Assembly: GCA_947038155.1 (NCBI GenBank)
Contig: CAMQVH010000007.1
Coordinates: 62,001 to 126,000, forward strand
Direction of reading: 5' to 3'
Length of the DNA: 64,000 nucleotides
Origin: an uncultured Bacteroides sp.
Lineage (GTDB): Bacteria > Bacteroidota > Bacteroidia > Bacteroidales > Bacteroidaceae
The translations under genes were made by a program, and so were the position numbers. Of this stretch, positions 3,146-33,214 are shown piece after piece (position 1 is the stretch's first letter; every line of letters starts with the position of its first letter). Under the pieces are notes generated by a model. That model was not told the DNA's origin, did not search any database, and saw only the letters and a list, made by a program, of their open reading frames with translations.

Positions 3146-3994
3146 TTATTCTAACCCAGGCCAGGCTTTGGTTGAGTAAGTGGCTTCAAGTGCATTTTCC
3201 AAGTTATCATTAAGATTGGGAAAGAAATCGATTCCTGTTTTTTCTTCCAGTTCGTCTATCGTAAGGGCGTAGTCGGCGAGTCTGATTGTTGACGGTTTGC
3301 TGTCTTGGTGTTCCATCCAAAAGGCTATCGCTTTGAACGATTCGCCTTTCTTAAACAATAAAGCCATGTAGTAATATTTGGGAACGGGCTTGCTGCGGTC
3401 GCCGCCGATATATTCCTTAATATGTTCTTCCTTATCAATCGTTCCGCCTTTCACTACGTACAAGGTGTCGGAAGCGGTACAGCTACGTCCCCACGACTGC
3501 ACTTGTCCTTCCAATGCCAGCCAAACGCCTGTATTGAAATTGTTTCGTTGCGGGCTCATGTTGGTATAATAGAAAGTCTGATCATTGGCTTCTTGCAAAT
3601 AAAGTCGGTCGGCTGAAGCACAGAGGTGCCCTCTATCATAACCTCTTCTCCCGAAGTCTGCTTGTACGCGCTGGTATTCTGTGCCAAGCAAAGGGTCTGG
3701 GATAAATTCATTGCCACGGGTTGCTGTCTGTAACCGGGTCTGATTGTCGAACCGGAATGCAATCCAACGGGAGTGTTTCTTACTTTTATCATATTCCATA
3801 CTAAAAGAGGTTATTTTCTGCCCGTTGAAAGTAGTAGAGTGAGTTATGAATACATCGTTTACGCCATTGCGAAGAGCCGGAAGTTCTACGATGCCGGTGG
3901 CAAAATTATTGGAATCGTAATTGTCATCTTTATCACAAGCGATAATTCCAACACACAAAACTCCCAATAAAACATATTTTAATTGACATTTCAT
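3146..3994 (-). CDS. DNA/RNA non-specific endonuclease (NUC1/NucA family), lipoprotein
   Basis: 282 aa; GYDRGHLCASADR and YYTNMSPQRNNFNTGVW motifs; N-terminal signal with C (GVLCVGIIACDKDD). Confidence 0.9.
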   Translation of the reverse strand: MKCQLKYVLLGVLCVGIIACDKDDNYDSNNFATGIVELPALRNGVNDVFITHSTTFNGQKITSFSMEYDKSKKHSRWIAFRFDNQTRLQTATRGNEFIPDPLLGTEYQRVQADFGRRGYDRGHLCASADRLYLQEANDQTFYYTNMSPQRNNFNTGVWLALEGQVQSWGRSCTASDTLYVVKGGTIDKEEHIKEYIGGDRSKPVPKYYYMALLFKKGESFKAIAFWMEHQDSKPSTIRLADYALTIDELEEKTGIDFFPNLNDNLENALEATYSTKAWPGLE

Positions 3995-4060
3995 TGTATT
4001 TCTTTTTGAATTAAATATAGACTACAATATCAAATTATCAGTTGTCTAAAGAAATAGAAA

Positions 4061-4086
4061 GCTGCCCTCAACAATAAGGACAGCCT
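4061..4086 (-). terminator. Intrinsic terminator downstream of the 4115..6139 gene
   Basis: Minus-strand GCTGTCCT-tattgttg-AGGGCAGC stem (one G-U) followed by a T-rich tract. Confidence 0.6.
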
Positions 4087-4114
4087 TCATTATCAAATTA
4101 TAATCAGAGAAGTA

Positions 4115-6139
4115 TTATATCTCTGTAATGGTTACAGGCCCCTTAAGTCCCGGAACCGAGAAATATTTCTCCAGATTAGCTTGTATCAATACTAATTTTC
4201 CTTTATTTGTTGGATTTGTTTTTAATCCCCATGTAGTACGCCAAGTCGCTGGACTCTTTGGTAATTCGACAGGAATTAACTTTTCCGGTGCTGTCTCAGT
4301 TGGAGAGTCAGCCAATAATAGATTAGTATCACCTGCAAAATTCTCAAACTGAAGATTTTTTTCTGTCATAGACCCATTATTGGCAAAACCTACAATATAA
4401 CCTTTCACATAATATGGACCTTTTTTTGTGCTATTGAGCGTTATTACATCTTCCACAGAGTATGGATGTGCTTCTGAACCATCAGCTTCCTCAGGTTTAG
4501 GCTCTTCACCACTCTTTTCAGTAGCATATAATCTTATATTATAAAGACGAATACCAAAAGCATTGTCAGTTCCATTAGTAGAAAATTTCAAAGTGGAATT
4601 ATCTGTTCCAACCACCGAGATTTCAACTTGCATTTCATGAAATATTCCACTAACTTTACCATTACCCACAACTTCTTTACTAACAGGAGTGACTTCCTGA
4701 TCATTAAATGTGAGTTTCAAATGATTCAGATCATCAATTTCTGTCGTCTTATAGACATTAGATGCAATCTCATAAACTACAATAAACTTGGTATATCCTG
4801 TTGCATTAATGTTACTAATTAAAAACTCACCAGCTTTATTCGCAGGGAACCAAATATTATTTATTTTCCGAGATTCTTCCGTATTCTCCGGTGTTCTATG
4901 AGCAATTGCACGAATATCAGCAGTAGTAGCTGAATATGAATAATTATTATCCCAATGAGTAAAATTTGCAATAGCCGTAGTACTTCCCAATATATTTGCT
5001 TCCACATCCGACCCAAACTTCTCTGTGAATATTAATTCACCTTCAATCGGTGTCGGACTTGGTTCAACAGTACCACCTCCTTCACCTTCTCCTGTTACTT
5101 TCACATTTCTCACTTCCCATGTACCTACATCAGAAGTAGTACTCATATATTTGAAAGCAAATTGAATATTTTTACCTACATAGCTAGAAAGGTTAATATT
5201 ACCAGATGAAACAAATTTCCAATCAGAATTAGTTCCGTATGTTGGAATTGTAACTTGGGTCCAATCAGAAGCTGTACTTTCCTTCACCCATACAGTTAAC
5301 TCTTTTGTTGGATCGCCACAGAATTTATGAGCATGCTCAAATGTTAATGAAGCACTTGTTGCTTTTGTCAAATCTACAGCAGGAGATATCAACCAACTTT
5401 CTGAAGCTTCCTTTTCTGTTGCAGAAATAAAAGCACTAGCTTTCATATATGTACTAGTAGTACCACCTGCTTCCGGTGTATAAGATTCCCACTTCCAGAT
5501 TTCTTCAACCTTAGCAGGACGTGTTTTATCTTCGATAGTAAAAGAGCCTTTGTCTGAAGCAAATGTCTCCTCAAAGAATGTGACATTACCAACCGGTGGT
5601 TCAGGTTCTTCACCACCTTGTTCCTCACCAATTGGTTGATTATTAAACACCGCAGCTGTTGTATTAATCAACGCAGCCTTTCCAAAGCCCTTGCTCAACT
5701 CACCTTGAATCAACAACAGACCACCTTTATTATCCGGATGATCTTTCAGATTTAAAGCATTTGCCAAATCACTTCCGTTCTTTATTTTAACCGGCAAACA
5801 TTTGCTTTCATTAGTTTCGTCAGGACTTTCTGCTATCAAAACATTAGATGTAATATTGAAAGGAGCAGTAAAACTAGCCTTATTACCAGCAAATTCACCT
5901 TTATCATCATATACATTCTCAATTGCTCCTACAATATACCCTTGCACCCAAGCGATAGAGCCATCTTGTTTCTGCTGAGCAGCTTCAATATTATATGGAT
6001 TTTCCTTAGTACCATCTCCTACGACTCCCGGAGCATCACCTTCTCCCAATATATCATAAGGAGCAGGAACATCACTACATGAACTAAATGTAAACACCGC
6101 AAGCAGTGTTAAGAATAAAGCATTTAGAATCTTTTTCAT
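4115..6139 (-). CDS. Lipoprotein with two DUF6359-like repeats flanking choice-of-anchor J-like domains
   Basis: 674 aa; signal LAVFTFSSCSD; N-terminal DGTKENPYNIEAA...GYIVG... and C-terminal DGSEAHPYSVEDV...GYIVG... are repeats of the same unit. Confidence 0.7.
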   Translation of the reverse strand: MKKILNALFLTLLAVFTFSSCSDVPAPYDILGEGDAPGVVGDGTKENPYNIEAAQQKQDGSIAWVQGYIVGAIENVYDDKGEFAGNKASFTAPFNITSNVLIAESPDETNESKCLPVKIKNGSDLANALNLKDHPDNKGGLLLIQGELSKGFGKAALINTTAAVFNNQPIGEEQGGEEPEPPVGNVTFFEETFASDKGSFTIEDKTRPAKVEEIWKWESYTPEAGGTTSTYMKASAFISATEKEASESWLISPAVDLTKATSASLTFEHAHKFCGDPTKELTVWVKESTASDWTQVTIPTYGTNSDWKFVSSGNINLSSYVGKNIQFAFKYMSTTSDVGTWEVRNVKVTGEGEGGGTVEPSPTPIEGELIFTEKFGSDVEANILGSTTAIANFTHWDNNYSYSATTADIRAIAHRTPENTEESRKINNIWFPANKAGEFLISNINATGYTKFIVVYEIASNVYKTTEIDDLNHLKLTFNDQEVTPVSKEVVGNGKVSGIFHEMQVEISVVGTDNSTLKFSTNGTDNAFGIRLYNIRLYATEKSGEEPKPEEADGSEAHPYSVEDVITLNSTKKGPYYVKGYIVGFANNGSMTEKNLQFENFAGDTNLLLADSPTETAPEKLIPVELPKSPATWRTTWGLKTNPTNKGKLVLIQANLEKYFSVPGLKGPVTITEI

Positions 6140-6159
6140 AATTATATGTGTTAATTGAA

Positions 6160-7002
6160 TTAATTATTTCGTTTGATATCATTTAAAGTGCGGACAATAA
6201 CCTCCCATTGGTTATTGTAACGTAACAAAATACCTGTAATATTCACACTACCTTGCGGCATTACCTCCTTTGAGAAGTTTGCGTAAGCACTAGTATAAAG
6301 GAACAAGTTACTTCCACTCTCTGTACCATCAGCATAAGTGAAATAACGCTTTACGGAACCTTCATCACCAGGAGCGTAGGTTGCCGTTCCGTCTGCTTCG
6401 GAAAGCTTTACGTTTTTAAAAGTAACCAATACCGGCGCTGCCTTCAAATCAATAGCAGCAAGCTCGGCAGGCGTACTAACCTCAATCGGTTTCAATTCCT
6501 CATAATACAACTTCGGTTCATTAATCAGACGAACATGCTGCTTCCATACATACTCGGGCATACGTCCAACTGAATTATTATAAACAGTACCAATTTGCGC
6601 TTGCTTACGGTAGCTACCGATCTGCAAACCCTTACAATCGATTACCACTTTCTGGCCTACCGGACAAAATGCATACAAACCGGTTGCATTAACGCCAATA
6701 ACAATAGCACCTGTTTCGTCTGCCACGACCAACTTCTTGTACAGATTACCACTCTCGTCATCACAGGTAATTACACCTTCAATACGGGTTTCACCTTCAA
6801 TAGTAGTATAAGTATCTTTACTCGTATCTATAAAGTCATTATATTTTTCTTTCAACGCAGCGATTGAAATTGTGCGCCCTTCCGGAATAGAATTATTGCC
6901 ATAGGCATTACCTGTTACCGGGTCATCATAGTTCTCGCAAGAAGTAAGAACTGTACCACATAACAGCAATCCGGTACATAATATAGATAGTAATTTCTTC
7001 AT
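6160..7002 (-). CDS. DUF5689-type (OB-fold-like) lipoprotein
   Basis: ORF 6160..7047; likely start at internal ATG 7002 (MKKLLSILCTGLLLCGTVLTSCENYDDP). TTIEGETRIEGVITCDDESGNLYKKLVVADETGAIVIGVN resembles DUF5689. Confidence 0.75.
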   Translation of the reverse strand: MKKLLSILCTGLLLCGTVLTSCENYDDPVTGNAYGNNSIPEGRTISIAALKEKYNDFIDTSKDTYTTIEGETRIEGVITCDDESGNLYKKLVVADETGAIVIGVNATGLYAFCPVGQKVVIDCKGLQIGSYRKQAQIGTVYNNSVGRMPEYVWKQHVRLINEPKLYYEELKPIEVSTPAELAAIDLKAAPVLVTFKNVKLSEADGTATYAPGDEGSVKRYFTYADGTESGSNLFLYTSAYANFSKEVMPQGSVNITGILLRYNNQWEVIVRTLNDIKRNN

Positions 7003-7049
7003 AATCGTTTCTTCCTTTCTTTTTGTTTTGGATTGATAACTACACATTC

Positions 7050-9578
7050 TTAAAATCTATAACCAATATTCAAGAAAGCATTGAACGGGAATGCATAGAA
7101 ATACTTGGAGTTCTTAGAGAACTTGTAAATACGCGCGTCACCGTCTTTGTAATTATCATCACGGTTTTGTTCAAAGCCACCTGTACGGAGATCTGTATTA
7201 TTCAAGATATTAGTCAGACTCAGATTAAGGCTAATACTCTTGCCATTACGCAAACGGATAAATTTCCCGATAGAAGCATCAAGCATAAATCCTCCGTCCA
7301 GTTTTTCCTGTCCCGGAACATTAAGAACCGGATTACCGTTAGCATCTACACCTGCACCGTTCTTATCCAATACACTTCCAAGGCGACGATAGCTTGAGAA
7401 GTCAATGTATACACGATCATAGTAATTACCTGTCAGGTTGAAGAACCAACCATTTATGTTATAATCCAGGGCAAGGCTATAAGCAGACAACGGTGTTCCA
7501 TTAGCATGCAGACCTTTTGCATAAACACGATCAAGATTTGACTCATTTTCACTCTCGTATGTCAACACAGCATCAGGATTGTTTGCATATTTAGCATCAC
7601 TCCAAGTACCAATAGCGGTTAATGAAAGTTCACTTGTCAGCTTAAATGTAGCTGCCGCTTCTATCCCCCAATGCTCCTTTTCAATACCGTTCATAGAAAG
7701 ATAAGTGAAACGTGCTTCACTGTCATTATAGAATGCATCCATTTCCACCTGATTCTGGAAGCGTGTATAATAACCGGTCAAACGTCCCATTACCCATGAA
7801 GTATTGAAATTGTAAGTCAGATCACCACCGAAAATACGTTCTGTTTTCAAATCTTTCACAAAATCATTCTTAATACGCGGAGCAATGAAAGAGTTATAGG
7901 CAAGCGGTGCACGATCTTCATATCCTGCATTCAATGTAAACGAATGGTTGCCATTGATAGCCCAGCTTAATCCGGCTTTCACTCCCCCTTCCAAGAACTT
8001 GGCAGTACCGCTGCTACCCAATGACTTCAATGGAGCACGTCCGTTTCTCATTTGTCCGTCACGGAACATTTGTGTAGACCCAATCTTACCGGATACAAAA
8101 TAATTGAGCGAACCGGCATTGTTTCCTTGATAGCGTATCCAGGCACTCTGTTTATTTACATAAATATTATAATTGTAACCAAACTTATCGCCTTCACCGA
8201 TACGACGGTTCGGATTATCGAGGTCATTCTGTACCATAGTAGAACTTGCACCATGATCGCGCACTGCAAACTTATCAACATCAGTATAGAGTTGCGCACC
8301 CAACAAATCTTTCATTTTTTTATAGTGCATACCTTTCGTTGTATTCACCGCGATTCCTGCAACATAACTGTTACGTTCGTTCCATTGATGGTTGAATACT
8401 GAGTTGAAGTTGAATGCTAACTGGTCGTCATGACGTTCTTCTACATAATAGAGTGCTTCCTTACCCAATGAATTGGCTTGTTTATTGGCAAAATAAAGAG
8501 CATCCCAATCCAATTGACGATAAGCCTTATTATTCTTCCAATTATCAGTTACTTCATTAAATTGCTGCAACTCGTCAGGGGTAGGAACTGACTCCCATAC
8601 GTCAAAAATAGAACTAGGCAACTTCTTATAATAATCCGGACGTGGATCCGCCGCATTACCATTCCAACCCAAAGCACTCTTGCCATAATTAGAATACTTG
8701 AATCCGGCACTTGTCACCAACTTCTTATTATCATCAATATTGAAGTTCCAAGAAGCAATAGCCGATGGTTCAAACTGACGCACAATACGTGCATTTCGTT
8801 TCTCACCATTTTGATATCCCCAGTTCGGATTGTAATAATGGCTATTGGCTAAATAATAAGCTTCTTCAGTAGCTGCCATCTGTTGACCTCTCTCTGTAGG
8901 TGTTCCCCATGTAGCTAAAGAAAGGCTGTGACGTTCATTAAATACTTTCTCTGCACCAAGGAAATAAGAGAAAGAGTTATACTTAATACCTTCAATATTA
9001 CCTTCATTACCCCAACGATATCCCAATGAACCGGTAAATGCCCAGCCATTGTTCATCAAACCTGTGGAATAAGTGTACATTCCACGCAAAATGTAATTAC
9101 GGTTACTACCAGACAATGTGAGTTTTGAACCGGCGGCATATTGACTGGCACGTAAATTAATATTAGTAGCTCCCCCTATCGCTCCAAAAGTAAAATTATT
9201 GACTTCAAAAGGACCGATACCTTCTTTATTACGGGTCGCGTCATTTAATCCCCCGATTAATCCGTAGCTGAAACGTCCTGTTTCTACATCATTGAATTGT
9301 ACCCCATTGATGTACATATCGCTATACTGGGAATCATATCCCCTTACGCGAAATCTCATCGGGCTAAACAGATAACCTACATTTGACAGATAAACATCAT
9401 TGTTGGAAGTGACTAACGCAGAGGTACTCTGAGCTGTATCATCTTCTTCATTCAATTGTGATTCTGTAAACATGAAAGAAGCATTGTCTTCACGGGCATT
9501 TTGCTTTGCCTTTTGCTGAGCCAAAAGTGCTGGTGTTAAGCAAAATAGCACGATCGCTAACCCTAGTCGTTGTTTCAT
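7050..9578 (-). CDS. TonB-dependent receptor
   Basis: 842 aa; signal peptide; plug-like DVYLSNVGYLFSPMRFRVRGYDSQYSDMYINGVQFND; beta-barrel ending in FLNIGYRF. Confidence 0.85.
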   Translation of the reverse strand: MKQRLGLAIVLFCLTPALLAQQKAKQNAREDNASFMFTESQLNEEDDTAQSTSALVTSNNDVYLSNVGYLFSPMRFRVRGYDSQYSDMYINGVQFNDVETGRFSYGLIGGLNDATRNKEGIGPFEVNNFTFGAIGGATNINLRASQYAAGSKLTLSGSNRNYILRGMYTYSTGLMNNGWAFTGSLGYRWGNEGNIEGIKYNSFSYFLGAEKVFNERHSLSLATWGTPTERGQQMAATEEAYYLANSHYYNPNWGYQNGEKRNARIVRQFEPSAIASWNFNIDDNKKLVTSAGFKYSNYGKSALGWNGNAADPRPDYYKKLPSSIFDVWESVPTPDELQQFNEVTDNWKNNKAYRQLDWDALYFANKQANSLGKEALYYVEERHDDQLAFNFNSVFNHQWNERNSYVAGIAVNTTKGMHYKKMKDLLGAQLYTDVDKFAVRDHGASSTMVQNDLDNPNRRIGEGDKFGYNYNIYVNKQSAWIRYQGNNAGSLNYFVSGKIGSTQMFRDGQMRNGRAPLKSLGSSGTAKFLEGGVKAGLSWAINGNHSFTLNAGYEDRAPLAYNSFIAPRIKNDFVKDLKTERIFGGDLTYNFNTSWVMGRLTGYYTRFQNQVEMDAFYNDSEARFTYLSMNGIEKEHWGIEAAATFKLTSELSLTAIGTWSDAKYANNPDAVLTYESENESNLDRVYAKGLHANGTPLSAYSLALDYNINGWFFNLTGNYYDRVYIDFSSYRRLGSVLDKNGAGVDANGNPVLNVPGQEKLDGGFMLDASIGKFIRLRNGKSISLNLSLTNILNNTDLRTGGFEQNRDDNYKDGDARIYKFSKNSKYFYAFPFNAFLNIGYRF

Positions 9579-9778
9579 AATTTAATTTATATTAATGTTA
9601 ATTGGTCTTTCATTTTGCAATACAAATGAAATAAACTATCATGCAAAATAACAAAGAAATTTATGAATAACAATGTTTTTTTCGAAAAAAGTCGCTGCAA
9701 TAGGCGGTTTTTCCGTTTTCTTTTTAGATATTTGTCATACGAATGTCAAATTACCCACTTTTAAAATGAATTTTAAAG

Positions 9779-10804
9779 ATGAAAAAAAACCTAATGACTC
9801 TCGGCCTACTTGTCTTTTTTGTCCTAATGGCTTATGGACAAGAAAAGAAATACGCCCTCTACAGTGTAGCTTTCTACAACATGGAGAATTTATTCGACAC
9901 AATCCATGATGAAGGTAAAAACGACTACGAGTATTTGCCCAATGGAACGAACCAATGGAATTCGATGAAATATAAGGCAAAGCTGAAGAATATGTCGGAA
10001 ATTTTAAGTAAACTTTCAACTGACAAGTTGCCAATGGGACCTGCCATTATCGGTGTATCTGAAATCGAGAACTACAGAGTTCTGGAAGATATTCTGAAAC
10101 AACCAGCTTTAGCTGACAGAGATTATAAGTATATTCATTATGAAGGCGAAGACAGGCGCGGCGTAGATTGCGCATTCTTCTACAATCCGAAATTATTTGA
10201 ACTCTCAAACAGCAAGCTTGTTCCATATGTATATATAAATGATACAGTGCATAAAACACGCGGCTTCCTTATTGCCAGCGGCTATATAGCTGGAGAGAAA
10301 ATGCACTTTATTGTCAACCATTGGCCTTCACGCGCCGCTGCATCTGCTGCTCGCGAACGTGCGGGTGAGCAAGTCAGAGCAATCAAAGATTCTTTACTAA
10401 GGGAGGACTCTGCTGCAAAAGTGGTTATCATGGGAGACATGAATGACGACCCGATGGACAAAAGTATGGCTGTGGCACTTGGCGCCAAGAGAAAACCGGC
10501 AGATGTTGGTCCGGAAGATTTATACAACCCATGGTGGGATACACTGAAAAAAGGCTACGGTACATTAATGTATAGAGGCAAATGGAACTTATTTGACCAA
10601 ATTGTATTTACTGGAAACCTGTTAGGTAACGACCGTAGTTCATTGAAATACTATAAACATGAAATTTTCCGTCGGGATTTCATGTTCCAAAAAGAAGGGA
10701 AATATAAAGGATATCCAAAACGAACGCAAGCAGGTGGTGTATGGCTAAACGGATATAGCGATCACCTACCTACCATAATTTATTTAATTAAAGAAGTAAA
10801 ATGA
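9779..10804 (+). CDS. Endonuclease/exonuclease/phosphatase family protein, secreted
   Basis: 341 aa; YNMENLFDTIHD, GVSEIEN, GDMNDDP, NGYSDHLPTII catalytic motifs; signal peptide. Confidence 0.9.
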   Translation: MKKNLMTLGLLVFFVLMAYGQEKKYALYSVAFYNMENLFDTIHDEGKNDYEYLPNGTNQWNSMKYKAKLKNMSEILSKLSTDKLPMGPAIIGVSEIENYRVLEDILKQPALADRDYKYIHYEGEDRRGVDCAFFYNPKLFELSNSKLVPYVYINDTVHKTRGFLIASGYIAGEKMHFIVNHWPSRAAASAARERAGEQVRAIKDSLLREDSAAKVVIMGDMNDDPMDKSMAVALGAKRKPADVGPEDLYNPWWDTLKKGYGTLMYRGKWNLFDQIVFTGNLLGNDRSSLKYYKHEIFRRDFMFQKEGKYKGYPKRTQAGGVWLNGYSDHLPTIIYLIKEVK

Positions 10805-11994
10805 TAAAAGGATTATTTAAGTTATTTATTCTGTTCATAGTTTATAGCACAGTTGTATCTTGTAGTGAACAGAATATTCCGGACCTACCAGAAAATCCGG
10901 GCAATACCAATCAAGGAATTGCCTCTATTGACCAAACGCAAATCAATGCCAATGGAGGCGGATTTATCATTCGTGTAAAAGCTGACGGCACATGGCAGGC
11001 TTCAAGCAGTGAGACTTGGTGTACATTGAGTAGAGCATCGGGCAATGGAAATGGCTCTATCAGTGGATATATGAAAGCAAATACCAGTACAGAACGTAAT
11101 GTAACTATTACAATCACTTCAGGAAAAGAGAAGGCAATATTCACCATAAAGCAGTTGGCCGGCAACGGTTCCAATCCTGATCCTGACCCAAGCCCAGACC
11201 CAGACCCAAATCCGGGTCCAGATCCGGAAAAACCTTCGGGATATGCAGGAAGAATTGAGATTCCTGTATTAAAGGGAGGAAGTATGAATATATTTCATAC
11301 ATGGACTACCAAAGAAAATGGCAAAGAAACTGTCACATACAGTTATGAATATGACTGTACGAAAAAGCATGTACGCTGGGTAGCATTTACCTTCGACAAT
11401 TATACATGTCAATCAAATGTAAAACGCTCTGATGCATGGAAAGAGGACACCAATATCCCTGCGCAATACAGAACATCAAAAAGCGACTATAACCCAGAGT
11501 ATACAAGAGGACATATGGTTGGTTCCGGTGACAGAGTATATAGCAGAGCTGCAAATGAACAAACATTTTATTATTCTAATATGAGTCCGCAACAACAAGC
11601 CGGTTTCAATACTGGTGGCGGTGTTTGGAATAATGTAGAAGACCAAGTACAAGCATGGGGACAAATCAACAATCCTGCAGACACTCTATATGTTGTCAAA
11701 GGTGGTACTATTGATAAAGAAGAAGATATACGCACTCGGACTAGCACAGGAGTAGCTGTTCCTAAATATTATTTTATAGCAGTCCTGTCGTATAAGAACA
11801 AACAATATAAAGGTATTGCATTCTATGTAGAACATACAAATAATAAGACCAATCTTATTAAACGCTACTCTATGTCTATTAGAGAATTAGAGCAGAAAAC
11901 CGGAATCAATTTCTTCCACAACCTTGAAGATGCAATTGAAAACAACGTAGAAATTAACTATAATCCCAGTGATTGGAGTTGGAAAGAAGGTTAA
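10801..11994 (+). CDS. BACON-like domain plus DNA/RNA non-specific endonuclease, lipoprotein
   Basis: 397 aa; ATGA overlap with the upstream gene; VVSCSEQ lipobox; BACON-like GGGFIIRVKADGTWQASSSETWCTLSRASG; YTRGHMVGSGDR and YYSNMSPQQQAGFNTGGGVW motifs. Confidence 0.9.
   Translation: MIKGLFKLFILFIVYSTVVSCSEQNIPDLPENPGNTNQGIASIDQTQINANGGGFIIRVKADGTWQASSSETWCTLSRASGNGNGSISGYMKANTSTERNVTITITSGKEKAIFTIKQLAGNGSNPDPDPSPDPDPNPGPDPEKPSGYAGRIEIPVLKGGSMNIFHTWTTKENGKETVTYSYEYDCTKKHVRWVAFTFDNYTCQSNVKRSDAWKEDTNIPAQYRTSKSDYNPEYTRGHMVGSGDRVYSRAANEQTFYYSNMSPQQQAGFNTGGGVWNNVEDQVQAWGQINNPADTLYVVKGGTIDKEEDIRTRTSTGVAVPKYYFIAVLSYKNKQYKGIAFYVEHTNNKTNLIKRYSMSIRELEQKTGINFFHNLEDAIENNVEINYNPSDWSWKEG
11171..11232 (+). 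repeat. Asp-Pro-rich low-complexity linker
   Basis: Encodes NPDPDPSPDPDPNPGPDPEKP between the BACON-like and nuclease domains. Confidence 0.8.
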
Positions 11995-12005
11995 CCCCAA
12001 CATAC

Positions 12006-12052
12006 TGAAATATAATAAAAGCCAGCGGAATGCTGGCTTTTATTATATTTCA
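12006..12052. terminator. Bidirectional terminator between convergent genes
   Basis: Perfect 21-bp inverted repeat TGAAATATAATAAAAGCCAGC / GCTGGCTTTTATTATATTTCA with a 5-nt loop; T-rich on both strands. Confidence 0.85.
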
Positions 12053-12093: not shown

Positions 12094-13398
12094 TTAAAAG
12101 GCATAATAGAAGAATAACAACAAAACAAGGTTACAAGCAATCACCACACCGAATCCTCCCAAAATCCAAGGGCGGAGTTTGCTCCCCTTTCCGGCAAAAA
12201 ACAGCGCATAGAGCATATTGACTAGTATATTACTGATGATAGCCTGCATGCTACAAGCCGTAATAACCAGCACAGCAACACTGCCTGTATTTTGCAACAG
12301 GTTTAATATGAAAGGCGTGATATCACTAAAGCCTGATACAAAAGAAAGAAGATTCAATCCGCCTGTACCTGCATAAACCAAAGTATAGTGTGTCAGAATA
12401 GTAAAGACTACAAAAAGTACGGCAAAAATCAATGCTACTTTGAACTCCAACGGGTTGCTGCTATCATCGTCTTCTTCGGTAGCAGGCTGACCTTTCGGGC
12501 GTTTTTGCCGGGAATGGATAAACCATCCCACAACGGCTGCTACGACTGACATAATCAGCAGATACGGATAAATAGAAAGGAAGATTTCCCTGCTAAAGAT
12601 AAGTATCAGTATCATAAAACGCAAGAACATCATGCTAACAGCCAGCAACATGGCGCCCACATATTCGGTAGCTTCTTGTTCCGAGGCTTTCCGGCTCTTA
12701 CGGGCCAGCACCGAGATAGTAGCCGTACTGCTATACAATCCACCAATAATACCGGAAACCAACGTTCCGGATTCATGGAATACATACCTCTTTAATAAAT
12801 AAGAGAGATAGGAAATACCGGAGACGACAACCGTCGCCAGCCAAATAGAATAAGGAGTGAGATTAATATCCGGAATCAGGTTCTTATGCGGAAGCATCGG
12901 TAATATGATACCACTGATAGCCAAGAATTTCGCCAACGTTATCATTTCGTCATTCTTCATGCGTTGGGCAAACTCCGTAAAGGTGTGTTTGAGTTCAGTC
13001 AATAAAAGTACAGTCACTATCACCATGACGTAGAACCAGGAAGGCTGCGTAGCCACAATGGGAGCCATACAATACGTAATCAAGGCAATGATAATAGTTG
13101 TAACGCCAAAGACATGGAATTGGGATTGCTTCACATAATAGTTTAATCCCAACAATAAGCCCAGCACTGCGCCACCACCCATAAACAAACGCATATCGGT
13201 AGGATCCAGTATATAGAGCAGGTATCCCAATATACCTATGAAAGTAAAGGTACGGTCGGTTCCGAAAAGAGTCGTTTCTCCCTCACGTTTCAAACTGATC
13301 CGACGTTGCGAGAGTCCGATTAATAAAGAAAACAAAGTTACCAATACAAAAGTAACCAATTCCCGCGGCACATAATTGTACAACTGTTCCATATCCAT
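12094..13398 (-). CDS. MgtC/SapB-DUF4010 family membrane protein
   Basis: 434 aa multi-TM; LVTLFSLLIGLSQRR...GTDRTFTFIGILGYLLY typical MgtC-like N-terminus, then DUF4010-like C-terminus. Confidence 0.75.
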   Translation of the reverse strand: MDMEQLYNYVPRELVTFVLVTLFSLLIGLSQRRISLKREGETTLFGTDRTFTFIGILGYLLYILDPTDMRLFMGGGAVLGLLLGLNYYVKQSQFHVFGVTTIIIALITYCMAPIVATQPSWFYVMVIVTVLLLTELKHTFTEFAQRMKNDEMITLAKFLAISGIILPMLPHKNLIPDINLTPYSIWLATVVVSGISYLSYLLKRYVFHESGTLVSGIIGGLYSSTATISVLARKSRKASEQEATEYVGAMLLAVSMMFLRFMILILIFSREIFLSIYPYLLIMSVVAAVVGWFIHSRQKRPKGQPATEEDDDSSNPLEFKVALIFAVLFVVFTILTHYTLVYAGTGGLNLLSFVSGFSDITPFILNLLQNTGSVAVLVITACSMQAIISNILVNMLYALFFAGKGSKLRPWILGGFGVVIACNLVLLLFFYYAF

Positions 13399-13447
13399 AC
13401 ATTACTCTTTTTAGATAAGAACAAATATACAGTTTATTTGTTAACGT

Positions 13448-13915
13448 TCACCACGTTTTATACGGTTTTTTCATTAGCTGTGAGTTGTAGTAGCGTATGT
13501 CGCCCGTGACCTCCTCACCGATAAAGTCGGGTTTTACAAAAGCCTCATCTTCTGATGCCAGCTCTACTTCTGCCACAATAAGTCCTTCGTTCTCACCATA
13601 GAATTCGTCAACTTCGAATACATGTTTGCCACTGCGCACCAAATAACGAGTTTTATCAATAATACCCGGTTCGCAAAGTTTCATCAACTCTTCTGCTTCT
13701 GACAAGGGCAGCTCCTTTTCCCACTCATAGCGACTGGTGCCGGAAGCATTAGACGCTCCCTTAATAGTCAGATACCCTCTATTGTCACGAATACGGACCC
13801 GGACAGTTCTCCCGCGAGCACTGCTGATATACCCTTGCACAATACGGCTCTGCGCAAATGCAAAAGGTTTGAATTCTCCGGAAACTAAAAATTTACGTTC
13901 TATTTCTTGTGCCAT
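13448..13915 (-). CDS. CYTH domain protein
   Basis: MAQEIERKFLVSG (ExExK CYTH signature) from internal ATG 13915 of ORF 13448..13981; TATCTTTG box just upstream. Confidence 0.85.
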   Translation of the reverse strand: MAQEIERKFLVSGEFKPFAFAQSRIVQGYISSARGRTVRVRIRDNRGYLTIKGASNASGTSRYEWEKELPLSEAEELMKLCEPGIIDKTRYLVRSGKHVFEVDEFYGENEGLIVAEVELASEDEAFVKPDFIGEEVTGDIRYYNSQLMKKPYKTW

Positions 13916-13936
13916 GACGCAAAGATAAATTAAAAA

Positions 13937-14023
13937 TTGAGAATTAAAAAATGATTGTTTAGTACCCCTCACACTACCCACAAAAGAACCGCAACAGCTT
14001 AATTCTCATTTTTTAATTCTCAA
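13937..14023. repeat. 18-bp perfect inverted repeat flanking a short spacer
   Basis: TTGAGAATTAAAAAATGA at 13937..13954 and its reverse complement at 14006..14023. Confidence 0.7.
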
Positions 14024-14029
14024 ATTATT

Positions 14030-15082
14030 TCAGAATCTCGTCATAAATTCAATTATGATCTTATCCTGTTCGGATTCTTTAGGTACACCGGACTTCTTAT
14101 AGAAATATTTTTCGAAATTCAGCCGCAAGTCAGCGATAAAGGCTTTAGAAAGACTTAGTGTGATTCCGCCTGTCACACGATGGCGGTCATAATCATTGAT
14201 TATCAAAGCCTTGGTTATTTCATCTTTCCTGCCGTCACTATGATCCGTCATCATGTCATAACGGGCAAGAAATGAAATCTTGTTGAATACCTTTTTCAAT
14301 GGTAAATCGTAATTAATGAAACTATTCATAGCATGCACATCCTTGAACGCTTCATGCCCATACATCTTATATAAGTATTCTGCTTCAATATGGAAACGGT
14401 TATTCTGATAATAAATACCGACATCATACACATTGATTCGTACATCTTCCGGTTTTATCATTTGGGTGCTGAGTGTTACATTCCAATTCTTATCAGGCAA
14501 CAGTTGCGCTTTCACCGAATAATTCAACGTCTTATGCCATTCTTTCTGATTCGTCAAGCCGGAACCGTTGAATAATCCTCCTTCAAGGATAAATGGGACG
14601 CTTCCTTTATTTATATAAGCCGTAGTAAAACCAACATCGCGTACATTCCCGACTTGTTTGGCAATGAACGAACGGTTTGCGAAATATTGCTGATGGGGAG
14701 AGCGATGTGCGTCTATCGTGAAAGGAACACGCATTTGTCCAATCGTAAAATTCAAGTCTTGCAGCGGAAAGACACGCGCATAGGCATCAAGCATTTTAAT
14801 AGATCCTTCGTCCGAAAGGTCGATTTCCGCTTTATAAGCCACCAACGGATGCACATTTCCTGAAACGCTGAAACGCGCATTACGTACCTCGAAACGGCTT
14901 TCCTGCGTTTCCGTCTGGTATTCATATTTTCCTCGGATGGTTCCATGAATTTCAGGCAGATAATCTTTAAATTCCATTGTTTTCATCTCCAGTTTTTTGC
15001 CATCCCCGGCATCTTCCTTGGCCTGTCCGAAGACCGATGTCGCTAGCAAAAGCGTAACGACTGTTGTTGTGATTCTACTCAT
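14030..15082 (-). CDS. Porin, OprO/OprP (phosphate-selective porin) type
   Basis: 350 aa; GTIRGKYEYQTETQESRFEVRNARFSVSGNVHPLVAYKAEIDLSDEGSIKMLDAYARV...IGQMRVPFTIDAHRSP; signal peptide; C-terminal F. Confidence 0.8.
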   Translation of the reverse strand: MSRITTTVVTLLLATSVFGQAKEDAGDGKKLEMKTMEFKDYLPEIHGTIRGKYEYQTETQESRFEVRNARFSVSGNVHPLVAYKAEIDLSDEGSIKMLDAYARVFPLQDLNFTIGQMRVPFTIDAHRSPHQQYFANRSFIAKQVGNVRDVGFTTAYINKGSVPFILEGGLFNGSGLTNQKEWHKTLNYSVKAQLLPDKNWNVTLSTQMIKPEDVRINVYDVGIYYQNNRFHIEAEYLYKMYGHEAFKDVHAMNSFINYDLPLKKVFNKISFLARYDMMTDHSDGRKDEITKALIINDYDRHRVTGGITLSLSKAFIADLRLNFEKYFYKKSGVPKESEQDKIIIEFMTRF

Positions 15083-15219
15083 TTCAGTTGTTTGCTACTT
15101 AATTCGTAGCAAAAGTACAACTGCGAGGATACACAAAAATGACAATTTGAATACGGATAAATTACAGAGAAGTTACATTCCTATTACATGGGTTACGGAT
15201 GTGTTACAAATTAAAAGAG

Positions 15220-15282
15220 TTCACTACAGATTACACGGATTACACAGATTTTTCTCCTATAATCTGTGTAATCTGTGGTGAA
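15220..15282. repeat. ATTACACGGATTACACAGAT-type inverted/tandem repeat
   Basis: TTCACTACAGATTACACGGATTACACAGATT-tttctcctat-AATCTGTGTAATCTGTGGTGAA; 13-bp inner stem plus a 9-bp outer stem separated by one extra 9-bp unit. Confidence 0.75.
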
Positions 15283-15285
15283 TAA

Positions 15286-15420
15286 TCAGCCAAAAAAGGA
15301 ATATGCGATCAGCATAATCAGCGCCAAAATAATCAATGAGACAAACACTATTTTGACAACTCTTTGGGCTTGCTCTTCTTCCTTTTTGCTTATTGCTGTT
15401 TTTTTCTTACTCTTACCCAT
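15286..15420 (-). CDS. Small single-TM protein, 44 aa
   Basis: Below the ORF-track length. Reads MGKSKKKTAISKKEEEQAQRVVKIVFVSLIILALIMLIAYSFFG; charged N-terminus plus one hydrophobic helix. Confidence 0.6.
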   Translation of the reverse strand: MGKSKKKTAISKKEEEQAQRVVKIVFVSLIILALIMLIAYSFFG

Positions 15421-15504
15421 AATAGTTAGCTTTAAAGTTCAACGCTAACAAAGTAAGAACAAATCTTTTAACTTTCCAAAAATAACACTTGCTAATTTTG
15501 CACT

Positions 15505-16621
15505 TTATGACTCTTGTGAGGAAAATTCCATCAGATAGGCTTTGATAAAGCCATCTATCTTACCGTCCATCACACCGTTCACATCCGAAGTCTGATAGTT
15601 GGTACGATGATCCTTCACGCGACGGTCATCAAATACGTAGCTACGGATCTGGGAACCCCACTCGATCTTCTTCTTACCGGCTTCCACCTTTGCCTGTTCT
15701 GCCATGCGGTGCTGCAATTCCTTATCATACAAGATGGAACGTAGTTGACGCATTGCATTCTCACGGTTCTTCGGCTGGTCGCGGGTTTCGGTGTTTTCAA
15801 TCAGGATTTCTTCTTCCTCGCCAGTATAAGGATCTTTGTATTGATAACGCAAACGGACACCGGATTCTACCTTATTTACATTCTGTCCACCGGCACCACC
15901 GCTTCGGAAGGTATCCCAAGAGATACGTGCAGGTTCAATGTTCACTTCAATACTGTCATCTACCAGCGGAGTAACGAACACGGAAGCAAAGGAAGTCATC
16001 CGTTTACCTTGTGCATTGTATGGAGAAACACGAACCAAGCGGTGCACACCGTTCTCGCCCTTCAAATAACCGTATGCAAAACCACCTTCAAGATTGATAG
16101 TACAGGTTTTGATTCCGGCTTCGTCACCTTCCTGAAGGTTGGCAATGGTAGCTTTATAACCGTTCGTCTCGGCATAACGCAGATACATACGCATCAGCAT
16201 GGAAGCCCAGTCCTGACTTTCCGTACCACCGGCACCTGAATTGATTTTCAACACACAATCCATCTGGTCGGCTTCGTCACGAAGCATATTTTTGAGTTCG
16301 AGCGCTTCTACAGCTTCGTAAGCTTTCGCATAAGCTACGTCCACATCTTCCTCAGTCACCAACTCTTCCTTATAGAAATCAAAAGACAGTTCGAGTTCGT
16401 CTGCCAGCGTCTTGACTTCATTATAGCCGTCAATCCACTTTTGCAGGTCTTTCACCAATTTCATTTGAGCTTCGGCCTTCTTTTGGTCATCCCAAAATCC
16501 CGGAGCTTGTGTTCTCAGTTGTTCTTCTTCGACTTGAATTTTCTTCCCGTCGATGTCAAAGATACCTCCTCAGCGCATCAGTGCGCTCTTTCACGTCTTT
16601 AAGTTGTTCAATAGTAATCAT
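15505..16621 (-). CDS. prfB: Peptide chain release factor 2, programmed +1 frameshift: complement(join(15505..16557,16559..16621))
   Basis: Zero frame MITIEQLKDVKERTDALRRYL then TGA; AGGAGG TAT CTT TGA C slip site; +1 frame gives DIDGKKIQVEEEQLRTQAPGFWDDQKKAEAQMKLVKDL... with GGAGGQNVNK (GGQ) motif. Confidence 0.95.
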
Positions 16622-22985: not shown

Positions 22986-24605
22986 TTAATTTTTTACTTT
23001 TTTATCCCACCATACATTTACGGCGGCATTGTCTACACCACCCAAATACTGCTGGATGGCTTTTGTCAGGTTCTCATTATTGAGTTTGTATTCATCTTCC
23101 GGATAGGGGATACGACGCACTCCATCCTTGTATCCGTCGGTTGTCTTCACACCGGCATTAGTAAGATTGAGCACCGGAGGAATCTGACGCGGATATCCTG
23201 TACGTCTCCATTCGCTCCACGCCTCTTGTCCATCGGGGAAAAGGGCAAGATATTTCTGCGTGATGATGCGTTCCAACTTCTTCTCCATTTCGTCTTCTTC
23301 CACCCACTTCACGGTAATATTGCTGGGAGCCGCATGATTATAGGCAGCCTCCTTCATATCCTTGAAATCTGCCGGAGAAGCGGTACTGTTCAAATAACTG
23401 CCCAAGCTTACCTTACACTCCTCAAACGATTTCTGGATGCCCGATTCATAGAAATACTTAGCACTTCCGCCTCCCATATTGAAACCGGCCAGCACACCTT
23501 CGGCACGCAGGAAGTCTACTTCCGAAGCTCTCATCCAGTAGACAGGATCTTCCTCTTGAATGTTGGGCAAAGATGCCGCGTCATAGGTGTTTGCAGTAAC
23601 CGGCATACCAGCACGCACCGCAGATGCTCCATTATTTTGGAAATAGGTAGCAATACGCGGATCATTATACCCTTTCAAGTAAGATTGAATAGTGGCTCCC
23701 ATGCGGCTGTCATTATATTGTCCGGGATTAGCAATCTGGAACATAGGGTTTCTGATTTCAAAATTGGCACCTTTATGCATTTTCGCCATATCATCTACGC
23801 TTTCCATCACACCCAGCGGGTTTGTAACAGCCATTTCAGCATATTTGCGAGCCAATTCTTCATCGGCATAGCGCACGCGGATAGCCAAACGTAACATCAA
23901 AGAGTTGGCAAAACGTATCCACTTCGCCACATTGCCTTCGTACACCATGTCCGAAGCCAAAGGAACAACAGCACCGCCTCTCATGTAGAAATCGTAAAGA
24001 ATCTGAACCGCTTCATCCAATTCTTCAAAGAACGAATGATACACCGCTTCCTGCGAATCGTATTCCACAGTGAACGAACCACTTCCCGCCTTTGAGTAAG
24101 GGATAGGGCCATACTTATCGGCAGAACGGTGCAACCCCATAATTTTAGCAATCTGTACAATAGCATACAATTCTCTATTAGGATTATCACCATTCAGATT
24201 GATTTTCTTCAACTGAATCCAGGGAGTAAAGATCTTAGACGTAGCATAATCAAACATATGATTTGTCCGATTTACATGGAAAAAGAACGTAGTGGGATTA
24301 GCTCCTTCTTCCCATTTGTTGTCGCGCGGGGAGAAGTAGCCCACCCATGAGTCGCCACAAAGATTGATGGATACCTGATATGCATTAACCTCAGCTGTAT
24401 TGTCTGTTTTTAAAGGCACAGGAATGACGTGTTTTTCCAAGTTAGGCACATAAGCACCATTGAGCACACCGTCCAACTGTTCCATTTCCGTGTCGGAGTA
24501 ATACGGGTTCTTATTGATTTCTTCAAATTCCGAGCATGAGGTAATTGCCATGAGTTCCGCGCATGCCAATAGTACCCCTGTTATCTTTTTTATTTGTAAT
24601 TTCAT
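22986..24605 (-). CDS. SusD-like outer-membrane lipoprotein
   Basis: 539 aa directly downstream of SusC; AITSCSEFEEINKNPY; C-terminal QEAWSEWRRTGYPRQIPPV and RRIPYPEDEYKLN. Confidence 0.9.
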   Translation of the reverse strand: MKLQIKKITGVLLACAELMAITSCSEFEEINKNPYYSDTEMEQLDGVLNGAYVPNLEKHVIPVPLKTDNTAEVNAYQVSINLCGDSWVGYFSPRDNKWEEGANPTTFFFHVNRTNHMFDYATSKIFTPWIQLKKINLNGDNPNRELYAIVQIAKIMGLHRSADKYGPIPYSKAGSGSFTVEYDSQEAVYHSFFEELDEAVQILYDFYMRGGAVVPLASDMVYEGNVAKWIRFANSLMLRLAIRVRYADEELARKYAEMAVTNPLGVMESVDDMAKMHKGANFEIRNPMFQIANPGQYNDSRMGATIQSYLKGYNDPRIATYFQNNGASAVRAGMPVTANTYDAASLPNIQEEDPVYWMRASEVDFLRAEGVLAGFNMGGGSAKYFYESGIQKSFEECKVSLGSYLNSTASPADFKDMKEAAYNHAAPSNITVKWVEEDEMEKKLERIITQKYLALFPDGQEAWSEWRRTGYPRQIPPVLNLTNAGVKTTDGYKDGVRRIPYPEDEYKLNNENLTKAIQQYLGGVDNAAVNVWWDKKVKN

Positions 24606-24626
24606 AAATCTGAATATATTTAGTTG

Positions 24627-27600
24627 TTACAAGCTGAACTTAACACTGAATCCTAAGTTTCTCAAACTAGGCGGCATAAAGAAATCGCTACGGTTGTAAG
24701 TACCTGTAGAACCATTCATATCAGGATCGAACGGAGCTTTGCAGTAAAACATAAAAAGGTTACGTCCTACGAAAGAAACAGTAGCGTTGCTGAACACATT
24801 GCCTAGCCACTTCTTCGGCAACGAATAGGTCAATGAAAGTTCTTGAAGACGAATGTTGGTAGCATCATAAGTATAGTAAGCCATCAGTCCCTGTCCACCT
24901 ACAGTGTTATAAAAGCGTTCGGGGTCATACATATACCCATCAAGCATAACACCACCATTATCGCGCGCCTTGGCAGATACTTCGGACACGCCGAATGCGT
25001 CCATAAATGCCTGTGTCTGAGATGTAACGACACCACCGAAGCGTCCGGTAACCATCACACCCAACGAGAAGTTCTTGTAACTGATATCATGGCGCCATCC
25101 CATAGTGAAGTCGGGATCGGAAGAGCCCAGGCGAATACGCTGGCTGCGGTCTACCTGATAGCCATTTGCCTGTTCCACCAATTTGCCGTCTCTGCCACGT
25201 TGCAAAACACCTGTGGTGAAGATATCAGACATAGAATAGCCTTCGCGCAGATAAACGCCACCAGCTTCCTGCAACGAAAGTTCGGTAATACTAATTGATG
25301 TACCATCAATCGGATTAATCTGATTGTGCACCATCTCTTGAATCTTGTTCTTGTTGGCAGTGAACGTCAGGTGTGTAGAGTAGTTTACCTTACCATATTT
25401 GTCATTATACCCCCACGTCATTTCCACACCGCGGTTGCGCACCTTACCAGCCTGCACATAGAAGCCTGAATAACCGGTGGAAGAAGCCAACTGTGAGAAG
25501 AATGTCTGATTGTAAGTATTGGATTGGTAGATGGTACCGTCGAACGTAATACGTCCGTCCCAGAAACGTGCATTAAGACCTAACTCGTAGGACTTCGTAC
25601 GCTCAGGCTTGAAATCGGGATACGGGAAACTACCTATCGGATCAATCGCACCACTATTGATGACATGAGTAATAGTACCTGGAGTGATACCCACCTGTGA
25701 GATAGGCGAACCTACCTCGGTGTAAGATGCGCGCAACTTTAAATAAGAGATAAAGTCGGGCAACTTCACCATTTCGCTGATAATACCGGAAAGTCCGATA
25801 GAAGGGTAGAAGATTCCCTCTACATCACCGTTACTAACCAATTGCGAGGCCCAATCACAACGTCCGGTAGCCGACAAATAAAGCATATTTTTCCATCCCA
25901 ATTCAGCACTGGCAAATACAGCAAGGTTACGTGTACGATGGTAGCCTTGTGCTCTCTTACCCGAAGCAGGTTCCAAATTGGCAAGGGAGAAAAGGTTGGG
26001 TATTGTCATCAACTTGCCGCCCAAATCGACGCTACGCGTATAATGGTCTTCAAAGCTACCGCCCACATTGGCAGTCAGCGAGAAATCCTTGCCAAAACGT
26101 TTGTTTACGTTTGCCATCACATCAGCGTACGTCTGTGTGTAGAATTCTTCTTTCAGCTCATAGCTACCTTTGGAAGAACCGGTGTAGAGCTCAAGCGTAG
26201 AAGCGCTAAGCTTGCGTTCTTCAGTAGCGTGGCTCTTGTCCAACCGCACACGTCCGGCAATATTCAACCAGTCAAGGATGTCATATTGCAGTCTGGCATG
26301 AAGCATATAGCGGTTTTTCTTGGAGGGGAACATTTCGCGGTTGACAATCCAATAGGGATTTTCAAACGAAAGTCCTTGGTCACCATACTCCCAATGCTGC
26401 GTGGAAAAACGACGTTCTTCGTTGTAACGTTCGTATATCTTCACATTCTCGAAATCCTCACCACGGGGAAACAGATAAAGCGGGAACAACGGGTTGAAGT
26501 AGCGTCCGCCCGAAACCATGTTCTGCTCGGCTTGAATGACGTAGCTGGCACCTAAATCGACATGCAATTTATCGTTCAGCATCAACGCAGTATTTCTGAA
26601 AGAGAAATTGTAACGGTAATATTCGTTGTTCTTGATAATACCTTTAGAATTGGTAGAGGCCAAAGAGATAAACGTTTGATTAGTTCTGGTACCCGAAGAA
26701 ATGTTCAGCGAATTGATGGTGTTCATACCAGTCTTGAAAAAATCCATGGGATCAAATGAGGAAGGTGTAGCCAGTTTCTCGCCCCAGCTTCGATAGGAGT
26801 TTTCCCGGTTACCATAACTGTTCTGAAATTCCGGCGACATCATCGGTTTGGAAAACTCTGTATTGGATGAGAAGTTAATCTTCATCTTTCCCTCTACACC
26901 CTTCTTGGTGTTAATCAGAATCACACCGTTAGCTGCCGACGCACCGTAAAGGGCTGCTGCCGACGGACCTGTCAGTACAGAGATGCTTTCGATATCCTCA
27001 GGGTTGAAATCGGAGATACCTTCACTACCAGCCACTGCACCATATTCTGTCTGGATGACACCACGTGAAGGGTTTCCAACAGGTATACCGTCCACCACAT
27101 ACAACGCATTATTGTCACCAACGATAGATTTGGAACCACGCATGATGACGCGTGTAGCACCGCCCACACCAGAGGAACTCTTCTGGATATTGACACCAGC
27201 CACCTTACCGTTCAAGCTGTTCATAAAGTTAGCGTCTTTGGCTGCGGTCAGTTCTGAATTACTTACAGTCTGTACATTATAGGAAAGCGCTTTTTCAGCA
27301 CGTTTGATACCTAAAGCCGTAACAACCACTTCATCCAGTGCCTGCGAACCATCCTCCAACACTACATTGATTACATTTTCTTTTACAGCCACTTCCTTAG
27401 GCTGATAGCCGATATAGGAAAACACCAATATGGGAGTGGCACCTTGTGTGGTAATATGATAGTTACCGTCTATATTAGTTACAGTTCCGTTAGCAGTCCC
27501 TTTTTCAAGCACAGTAACTCCAATTAGCGGATCACCTTTTCCATCCACTACATTACCCGCCACATTTCTGCTTTTAGATTTTTTAGCAGCCTGTTCCGGA

Positions 27601-27905
27601 ATAATCATTATATAAGTATCTTTTACGGTATACGTGAACCCCGTTCCGGCAAGAATAGTATTCAGCGCCTGCTCCAAAGGCTGGTTGTTTATATCTAAAG
27701 ATATTCTTGTATTAGGGAGTTGAGAACTGTTGTAAGATACAGACATTTTGGTCTGTTCCCTAACGTCAGCCAAAGCTGTCTGCAATGAAATATTCTTCTT
27801 TTTTATTGTTATTTTACTATTACTTTGGGCATAAAGTATTGACCCTATTAATAATAGAAAAGTTATTAATATACTTTTTCTAGTGTTTTCCAGATATAAA
27901 TTCAT
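24627..27905 (-). CDS. SusC/RagA-type TonB-linked outer-membrane protein with N-terminal STN domain
   Basis: 1092 aa; STN domain, carboxypeptidase-like GNVVDGKGDPLIGVTVLEKGTANGTVTNIDGNY, ALDEVVVTALGIKR, plug and barrel. Confidence 0.95.
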   Translation of the reverse strand: MNLYLENTRKSILITFLLLIGSILYAQSNSKITIKKKNISLQTALADVREQTKMSVSYNSSQLPNTRISLDINNQPLEQALNTILAGTGFTYTVKDTYIMIIPEQAAKKSKSRNVAGNVVDGKGDPLIGVTVLEKGTANGTVTNIDGNYHITTQGATPILVFSYIGYQPKEVAVKENVINVVLEDGSQALDEVVVTALGIKRAEKALSYNVQTVSNSELTAAKDANFMNSLNGKVAGVNIQKSSSGVGGATRVIMRGSKSIVGDNNALYVVDGIPVGNPSRGVIQTEYGAVAGSEGISDFNPEDIESISVLTGPSAAALYGASAANGVILINTKKGVEGKMKINFSSNTEFSKPMMSPEFQNSYGNRENSYRSWGEKLATPSSFDPMDFFKTGMNTINSLNISSGTRTNQTFISLASTNSKGIIKNNEYYRYNFSFRNTALMLNDKLHVDLGASYVIQAEQNMVSGGRYFNPLFPLYLFPRGEDFENVKIYERYNEERRFSTQHWEYGDQGLSFENPYWIVNREMFPSKKNRYMLHARLQYDILDWLNIAGRVRLDKSHATEERKLSASTLELYTGSSKGSYELKEEFYTQTYADVMANVNKRFGKDFSLTANVGGSFEDHYTRSVDLGGKLMTIPNLFSLANLEPASGKRAQGYHRTRNLAVFASAELGWKNMLYLSATGRCDWASQLVSNGDVEGIFYPSIGLSGIISEMVKLPDFISYLKLRASYTEVGSPISQVGITPGTITHVINSGAIDPIGSFPYPDFKPERTKSYELGLNARFWDGRITFDGTIYQSNTYNQTFFSQLASSTGYSGFYVQAGKVRNRGVEMTWGYNDKYGKVNYSTHLTFTANKNKIQEMVHNQINPIDGTSISITELSLQEAGGVYLREGYSMSDIFTTGVLQRGRDGKLVEQANGYQVDRSQRIRLGSSDPDFTMGWRHDISYKNFSLGVMVTGRFGGVVTSQTQAFMDAFGVSEVSAKARDNGGVMLDGYMYDPERFYNTVGGQGLMAYYTYDATNIRLQELSLTYSLPKKWLGNVFSNATVSFVGRNLFMFYCKAPFDPDMNGSTGTYNRSDFFMPPSLRNLGFSVKFSL

Positions 27906-33189: not shown

Positions 33190-33214
33190 TACTATTTATA
33201 ATATGAATCTTCAA

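Follow-up and report, generated by a model that had tools for sequence, protein, structure and literature searches.

The Bacteroides locus examined here is probably the local form of an outer-membrane DNA-import module that occurs throughout the phylum Bacteroidota, extended in this case by two NucA-type lipoproteins and by a lipoprotein carrying DUF6359 and choice-of-anchor J domains; we put the probability of this reading at roughly 0.7. The core of the module would consist of a type-1 TonB-dependent receptor, a DUF5689 surface lipoprotein and an EEP nuclease, with DNA as their likely substrate here. Judging by sequence comparison, these three proteins are homologues of the products of three adjacent genes in the duck bacterium Riemerella anatipestifer, in which the receptor and lipoprotein genes have been tied to natural transformation. 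By analogy, the locus probably supports DNA uptake that needs none of the pili on which other bacteria rely.

Organisation of the locus

All six open reading frames that the preliminary description placed in this part of the window (the whole 64,000-nucleotide stretch of DNA analysed) were present at the coordinates and on the strands given for them (Table 1). Transcription on the minus strand would run from the receptor gene through those for the DUF5689 and DUF6359/anchor-J lipoproteins to the NucA gene. Because a terminator-like hairpin, recognised by pattern matching, precedes the NucA gene, transcription of this last gene may be independent of the others or weaker. On the plus strand, the EEP and BACON-nuclease genes share a 4-nt ATGA overlap, which bears out the coupling proposed for them. 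The intergenic region between the receptor and EEP genes gave no match to the Bacteroides -33/-7 promoter, and an Rfam search gave no match. Two other readings of the locus were set aside, a defence island, for which PADLOC returned zero matches, and a phage origin, for which the PHROG matches were only of nuclease type or of unknown function.

Table 1. Features of the locus, with positions numbered from the first letter of the window.
Feature	Position	Strand	Evidence
NucA/EndA-type non-specific DNA/RNA endonuclease lipoprotein	3146..3994	-	PF01223 5.3e-48
Terminator-like hairpin between DUF6359 and NucA genes	4057..4088	-	consensus scan only
DUF6359 - choice-of-anchor J - DUF6359 lipoprotein	4115..6139	-	PF19886 in two stretches; NF038128 62.8 bits
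DUF5689 lipoprotein, putative surface DNA-capture protein	6160..7047, likely start 7002	-	PF18942 3.7e-63
TonB-dependent receptor, 842 aa, type 1	7050..9578	-	profile homology; match to Riemerella RS04915
Intergenic region common to the divergent receptor and EEP units	9579..9778	.	
Exported EEP nuclease (Exo_endo_phos_3), divergent from receptor	9779..10804	+	PF19580 3.2e-107
BACON - NucA-type nuclease lipoprotein	10801..11994	+	PF01223 1.6e-40; PF13004 8e-10
Strong 20-bp hairpin at end of EEP/BACON-nuclease unit	12006..12052	+	consensus scan only

The receptor has zero Pfam matches, and its assignment comes instead from the profile of its family, which aligns over its full length (854 columns, 100% probability, E 1e-93) with that of a sister group carrying CarboxypepD, Plug and TonB-barrel domains. 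Thus, the original identification of the protein as a TonB-dependent receptor holds, by way of the family profile rather than any Pfam match. Its description as a receptor without a SusD partner is also borne out, as none of the six locus proteins matches the SusD family in Pfam and none of that family lies beside the receptor. In comparison with its relatives, most of which retain an N-terminal CarboxypepD_reg domain, the window receptor has lost this domain. A PDB sequence search with the receptor family matched the CarboxypepD domain and nothing else, and a single-sequence structure prediction of the receptor reached a pLDDT of 29.

The claim that three nucleases are encoded here agrees with our sequence check, in which the catalytic motifs proved intact in all three. 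The EEP nuclease retains five of five such motifs, and because its signal peptide is of the plain type, it may be periplasmic. The minus-strand NucA protein has an intact DRGH motif, carries the acidic stretch CDKDD after its lipobox, and matches the solved 'Nuclease' chains 2o3b and 1zm8 at about 1e-17, while the BACON-nuclease has a TRGH motif with the metal-site N and E. Both NucA-type proteins reach the PF01223 family score and display the RGH...N...E active-site pattern.

In the DUF5689 protein, the lipobox cysteine (Cys37), a residue invariant in DUF5689 lipoproteins, is followed by an acidic ENYDD stretch. Faint matches to PF01336 in 8 of 30 DUF5689 proteins (best 3.4e-5) lend weak support to an OB fold for this family. 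A single-sequence structure prediction of DUF5689 reached a pLDDT of 40, and a PDB sequence search found nothing convincing for DUF5689, EEP or DUF6359.

Homology to Riemerella and distribution in the phylum

The strongest indication of function comes from a paper on R. anatipestifer that mentions DUF5689 and in which transposon mutants were screened for natural transformation (PMC8459023). Three independent transposon insertions were recovered in RA0C_RS04915, which encodes an outer-membrane protein containing a carboxypeptidase regulatory-like domain, and transformation was below detection (PMC8459023). The insertion tested for polarity also silences the next gene, RA0C_RS04920, the product of which has DUF5689, DUF5017 and choice-of-anchor J domains (PMC8459023). 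Because the RS04915 insertions are polar, the roles of the Riemerella receptor and DUF5689 protein are not separable. RS04910, whose sole use in that study was as the upstream gene in the polarity controls (PMC8459023), is by its sequence the EEP gene. In addition, transformation is reduced in Riemerella tonBA and tonBB mutants, and in the tonBA mutant this occurs despite unimpaired iron uptake (PMC8383284).

To compare gene order, we used two Riemerella-like genomes found through a sequence identical to the comEC primer published for ATCC 11845. Their order is recA, a dinB-like gene, three succinate dehydrogenase-like genes (these labels, like dinB-like, come from reading the sequences), comEC, a gene for a 145-aa protein, a carboxyltransferase gene, and the EEP gene divergent from the receptor gene, which is followed by DUF5689. 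This arrangement agrees with the locus-tag spacing of RS04870/04895/04910/04915/04920, and the domains of the located proteins agree with those published (PMC8459023). The window receptor aligns with RS04915 at 27% identity over 831 aa (BLASTP, 1e-88), the DUF5689 protein with RS04920 at 32% over 227 aa (5e-24), and the EEP nuclease with RS04910 at 34% over its full length (1e-67). When the Riemerella receptor was searched in the window's own genome, its single match was the window receptor, and the receptor tree places the type-1 receptors, these two included, together and apart from type 2 with 100% support. At identities of only 27-34%, the substrate may have shifted relative to that in Riemerella.

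The lipoproteins appear to have been partitioned differently in the two organisms. The NCBIfam model NF052645 (M949_1556 family lipoprotein) matches the window DUF5689 protein over model positions 3-274 with 116 bits, below the curated cut-off of 475 bits that the Riemerella protein exceeds with 599, and the other half of the model matches the window DUF6359 protein with 46 bits. Since its halves match the DUF5689 and DUF6359 proteins respectively, one Riemerella lipoprotein seems to correspond to two proteins here. The choice-of-anchor J domain (NF038128, cut-off 30 bits), found in Riemerella's DUF5689 lipoprotein, here sits on the next gene, inside the DUF6359 lipoprotein. Intermediate forms exist, with DUF5689-DUF6359-DUF5017 in a single chain at one locus (L037) and DUF5689-DUF5017 in a single chain at another (L038); the DUF6359 lipoprotein is a separate version of the C-terminal half that is fused to DUF5689 in Riemerella and L037.

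Homologues of the Riemerella receptor were originally reported in Flavobacteriaceae only (PMC8459023). In our receptor-profile search, where a full-length match was one with E below 1e-190, about 64 of the 397 genomes sampled across the phylum gave such a match, although absence from a given genome is not proof, because these searches score few candidates per genome. All 8 genomes sampled from Riemerella's family have a full-length match, as do 32 of the 70 Bacteroidales genomes, which were sampled at one per family. A type-1 receptor is present in 7 of 10 Porphyromonas species, and the type-1 locus is patchy within the window's genus (7 of 25 genomes).

A check for a conserved neighbourhood had been named beforehand as one that could overturn the proposed association of these genes, and when it was run the neighbourhood recurred. 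Among 61 loci, picked from the best receptor matches rather than at random, DUF5689 lies downstream of the receptor in 57, and an EEP gene is the next one upstream in 49, with the two genes divergent in 44 of these and in the same orientation in 5. By this gene-order evidence, the EEP/receptor/DUF5689 unit is conserved phylum-wide and is more than a chance neighbourhood. NucA nucleases are found nearby in 16 of the 61 loci, Porphyromonas species included, and these NucA-bearing loci occupy two distinct regions of the receptor tree, one shared with the window and the other with Porphyromonas plus further members of the window's genus. Thus, the NucA nucleases are better regarded as a lineage-specific addition than as part of the core, and the conserved nuclease is EEP.

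Proposed mechanism and end uses

In the DNA-import module as we envisage it, the DUF5689 and anchor-J/DUF6359 lipoproteins would hold extracellular double-stranded DNA at the cell surface, where the NucA nucleases would shorten it to importable lengths. TonB would open the receptor and DNA would enter the periplasm, to be trimmed there by the exported EEP nuclease, a NucA enzyme or both. ComEC, together with a ComEA-like helix-hairpin-helix (HHH) protein, may then move a strand onward into the cell; alternatively, the DNA may be degraded to nucleotides. We infer both the order of these steps and what each nuclease does. The window's genome offers a way into the cytoplasm, since it encodes both ComEC and a three-motif, ComEA-like HHH protein; no DprA turned up in this assembly, which is 72% complete, whereas all other genomes tested have one.

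This scheme retains part of the preliminary description, which held that nucleic acid is bound, cut and imported by analogy with a polysaccharide utilisation locus (PUL). The idea of import gains from the homology of the receptor and DUF5689 protein to the Riemerella transformation pair, while the sugar-type PUL model gives way to one of DNA uptake. Assignment as a PUL is rejected because SusD and carbohydrate-active enzymes are absent from the locus, where Pfam finds nucleases only.

We judge genetic and nutritional end uses of the DNA about equally likely, and the two may coexist; the extra nucleases at the locus favour feeding, and Riemerella genetics favours transformation. On the nutritional side, it is plausible, if short of even odds, that surface nucleases cut DNA (and RNA), that the receptor imports oligonucleotides, and that periplasmic enzymes free nucleosides and phosphate, with DNA entry for transformation having been lost or being incidental. 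The presence of two additional non-specific nucleases, the addition of NucA at two distinct places in the receptor tree, and a patchy distribution like that of accessory catabolic loci are all consistent with this notion. However, the locus contains no nucleosidase, nucleotidase, phosphatase, transporter or regulator gene, and the receptor-DUF5689-EEP core occurs without NucA in 45 of the 61 loci and serves transformation in Riemerella.

Alternatively, and with the same tentative standing, the locus may confer competence, with EEP or NucA acting as a strand-processing nuclease in the manner of pneumococcal EndA. Homology to Riemerella genes that are essential for transformation points in this direction, as do the ComEC and ComEA-like HHH proteins of this genome and the DprA of its relatives. 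Yet ComEC, DprA and HHH proteins are just as frequent in relatives that lack the locus, the non-specific nucleases nearby would cleave transforming DNA, and in the literature searched we found no account of Bacteroides undergoing natural transformation. Flavobacterium, in which receptor homologues have been reported (PMC8459023), includes F. johnsoniae, which showed no transformation under the conditions tried (PMC7965970).

Competence in Porphyromonas gingivalis also weighs against a strict link to transformation. The genome that we take to be that of P. gingivalis, identified by a 16S primer that matched four copies, has no type-1 receptor and only an isolated type-2 receptor, so the type-1 module is not a general requirement for competence in the phylum. 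Type-2 receptors, about 25% identical to the window receptor, occur in most of the genomes sampled from the window's genus. They are usually followed by a lipoprotein-like protein of 440-860 aa and sometimes by a NucA nuclease; one of these lipoprotein-like proteins has a weak OB-fold match (2.3e-5), and the type-2 lipoproteins have no detectable homology to DUF5689. The type-2 receptor is a candidate for DNA uptake in P. gingivalis, where the authors of a 2024 study call the outer-membrane uptake mechanism unclear (PMC11532111).

It is improbable that the locus instead pairs an ordinary TonB receptor for a glycan, peptide or cofactor with nucleases that clear host extracellular-trap or biofilm DNA: the receptor family is defined by sequence only and nuclease lipoproteins on their own would fit DNA clearance, but EEP adjacency and DUF5689 linkage are kept over the phylum, Riemerella provides a genetic tie to DNA uptake, and SusD and carbohydrate enzymes are missing.

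Relation to known systems and significance

The closest known system is that of Riemerella, where, as in the window, a type-1 receptor (RA0C_RS04915) is followed by a DUF5689 lipoprotein (RS04920) with EEP (RS04910) divergent alongside. The window differs in having DUF5689 and anchor-J/DUF6359 on two proteins instead of a single lipoprotein, in its two added NucA nucleases, in its receptor without a CarboxypepD domain, and in its position away from recA and comEC. Its NucA-type nucleases have PF01223, to which we take pneumococcal EndA to belong, and an RGH-type active site in common with EndA and Anabaena NucA; unlike these, they are Bacteroidota lipoproteins, one of them with a BACON domain. 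In Streptococcus pneumoniae, EndA yields single strands for ComEC (reviewed in PMC12236230). The combination of a TonB-dependent receptor, surface lipoproteins and degradative enzymes recalls a SusC/SusD PUL, but nucleases take the place of SusD and carbohydrate enzymes. Finally, type IV pilus/PilQ secretin systems, like the proposed module, deliver DNA through the outer membrane to ComEA and ComEC, whereas the module would use a TonB-driven single-barrel receptor in place of pilus and secretin. A 2025 review that covers pilus/secretin uptake mentions neither TonB nor Riemerella (PMC12236230).

Three aspects appear to be new: the link of the module to Bacteroidales, EEP as its third conserved member, and the variant rich in nucleases. 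We found none of them described in the literature searched, which included few subscription journals and no preprints. More tentatively, many Bacteroidales, including gut Bacteroides and most sampled Porphyromonas, may carry a pilus-free, TonB-powered importer of long DNA with EEP as its dedicated processing nuclease. If so, natural transformation or DNA feeding would be a hidden general trait of the phylum, and DNA, if imported by a TonB-dependent receptor, would extend the range of TonB substrates by a new class. The locus supplies definite candidate genes for DNA uptake in tractable gut Bacteroides. Uptake of free DNA by such dense residents would bear on how genes spread there, as well as on the clearance or eating of host and microbial DNA in the gut.

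The proposed import locus and its neighbours in the window

Several genomes of the genus (L034, L035, L040, L115 and the window) have a DUF4010-CYTH-porin block close to the import locus. The receptors of the loci that carry it fall in two distant clades; this shared block despite such distant receptors suggests swapping at one chromosomal site. An ordinary SusC/SusD pair in the window is apparently unrelated to the import locus. A Pfam search of the 695-aa protein adjoining the O-antigen ligase-like protein gave no match.

Features and their locations
Feature	Location	Description
DUF4010-CYTH-porin block	window 12094-16464	
SusC/SusD pair	window 22986-27905	STN and CarboxypepD domains in the TonB receptor; SusD-like lipoprotein as partner
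Wzy_C protein	window 31102-34843	O-antigen ligase-like; span includes the adjoining 695-aa protein
Lone type-2 receptor	L163:7894-10509	P. gingivalis, 2,354,886-bp chromosome

Variants of the DUF5689 lipoprotein

DUF5689 lipoproteins of L097, L098, L099 and L175 carry two DUF5689 domains in tandem, and a domain scan of 30 DUF5689 proteins found a lamin-tail domain in one. Among control genomes, the family matched a protein of Bacillus subtilis, which may be YhcR, an OB-containing extracellular nuclease.

Type-2 receptors

Most genomes sampled from the genus carry the type-2 receptor family, approximately 25% identical to the window receptor (loci L043, L046-L048, L050-L052, L054, L055, L058-L060, L062 and L063). 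A protein of 440-860 aa, either OB-fold-like or uncharacterised, usually lies downstream, and several genomes also have a NucA nuclease at this locus. The type-2 loci represent a candidate general nucleic-acid system. In P. gingivalis, lipoprotein and nuclease partners are absent beside the type-2 receptor, which is itself a candidate for the outer-membrane DNA-uptake step of this naturally competent species.
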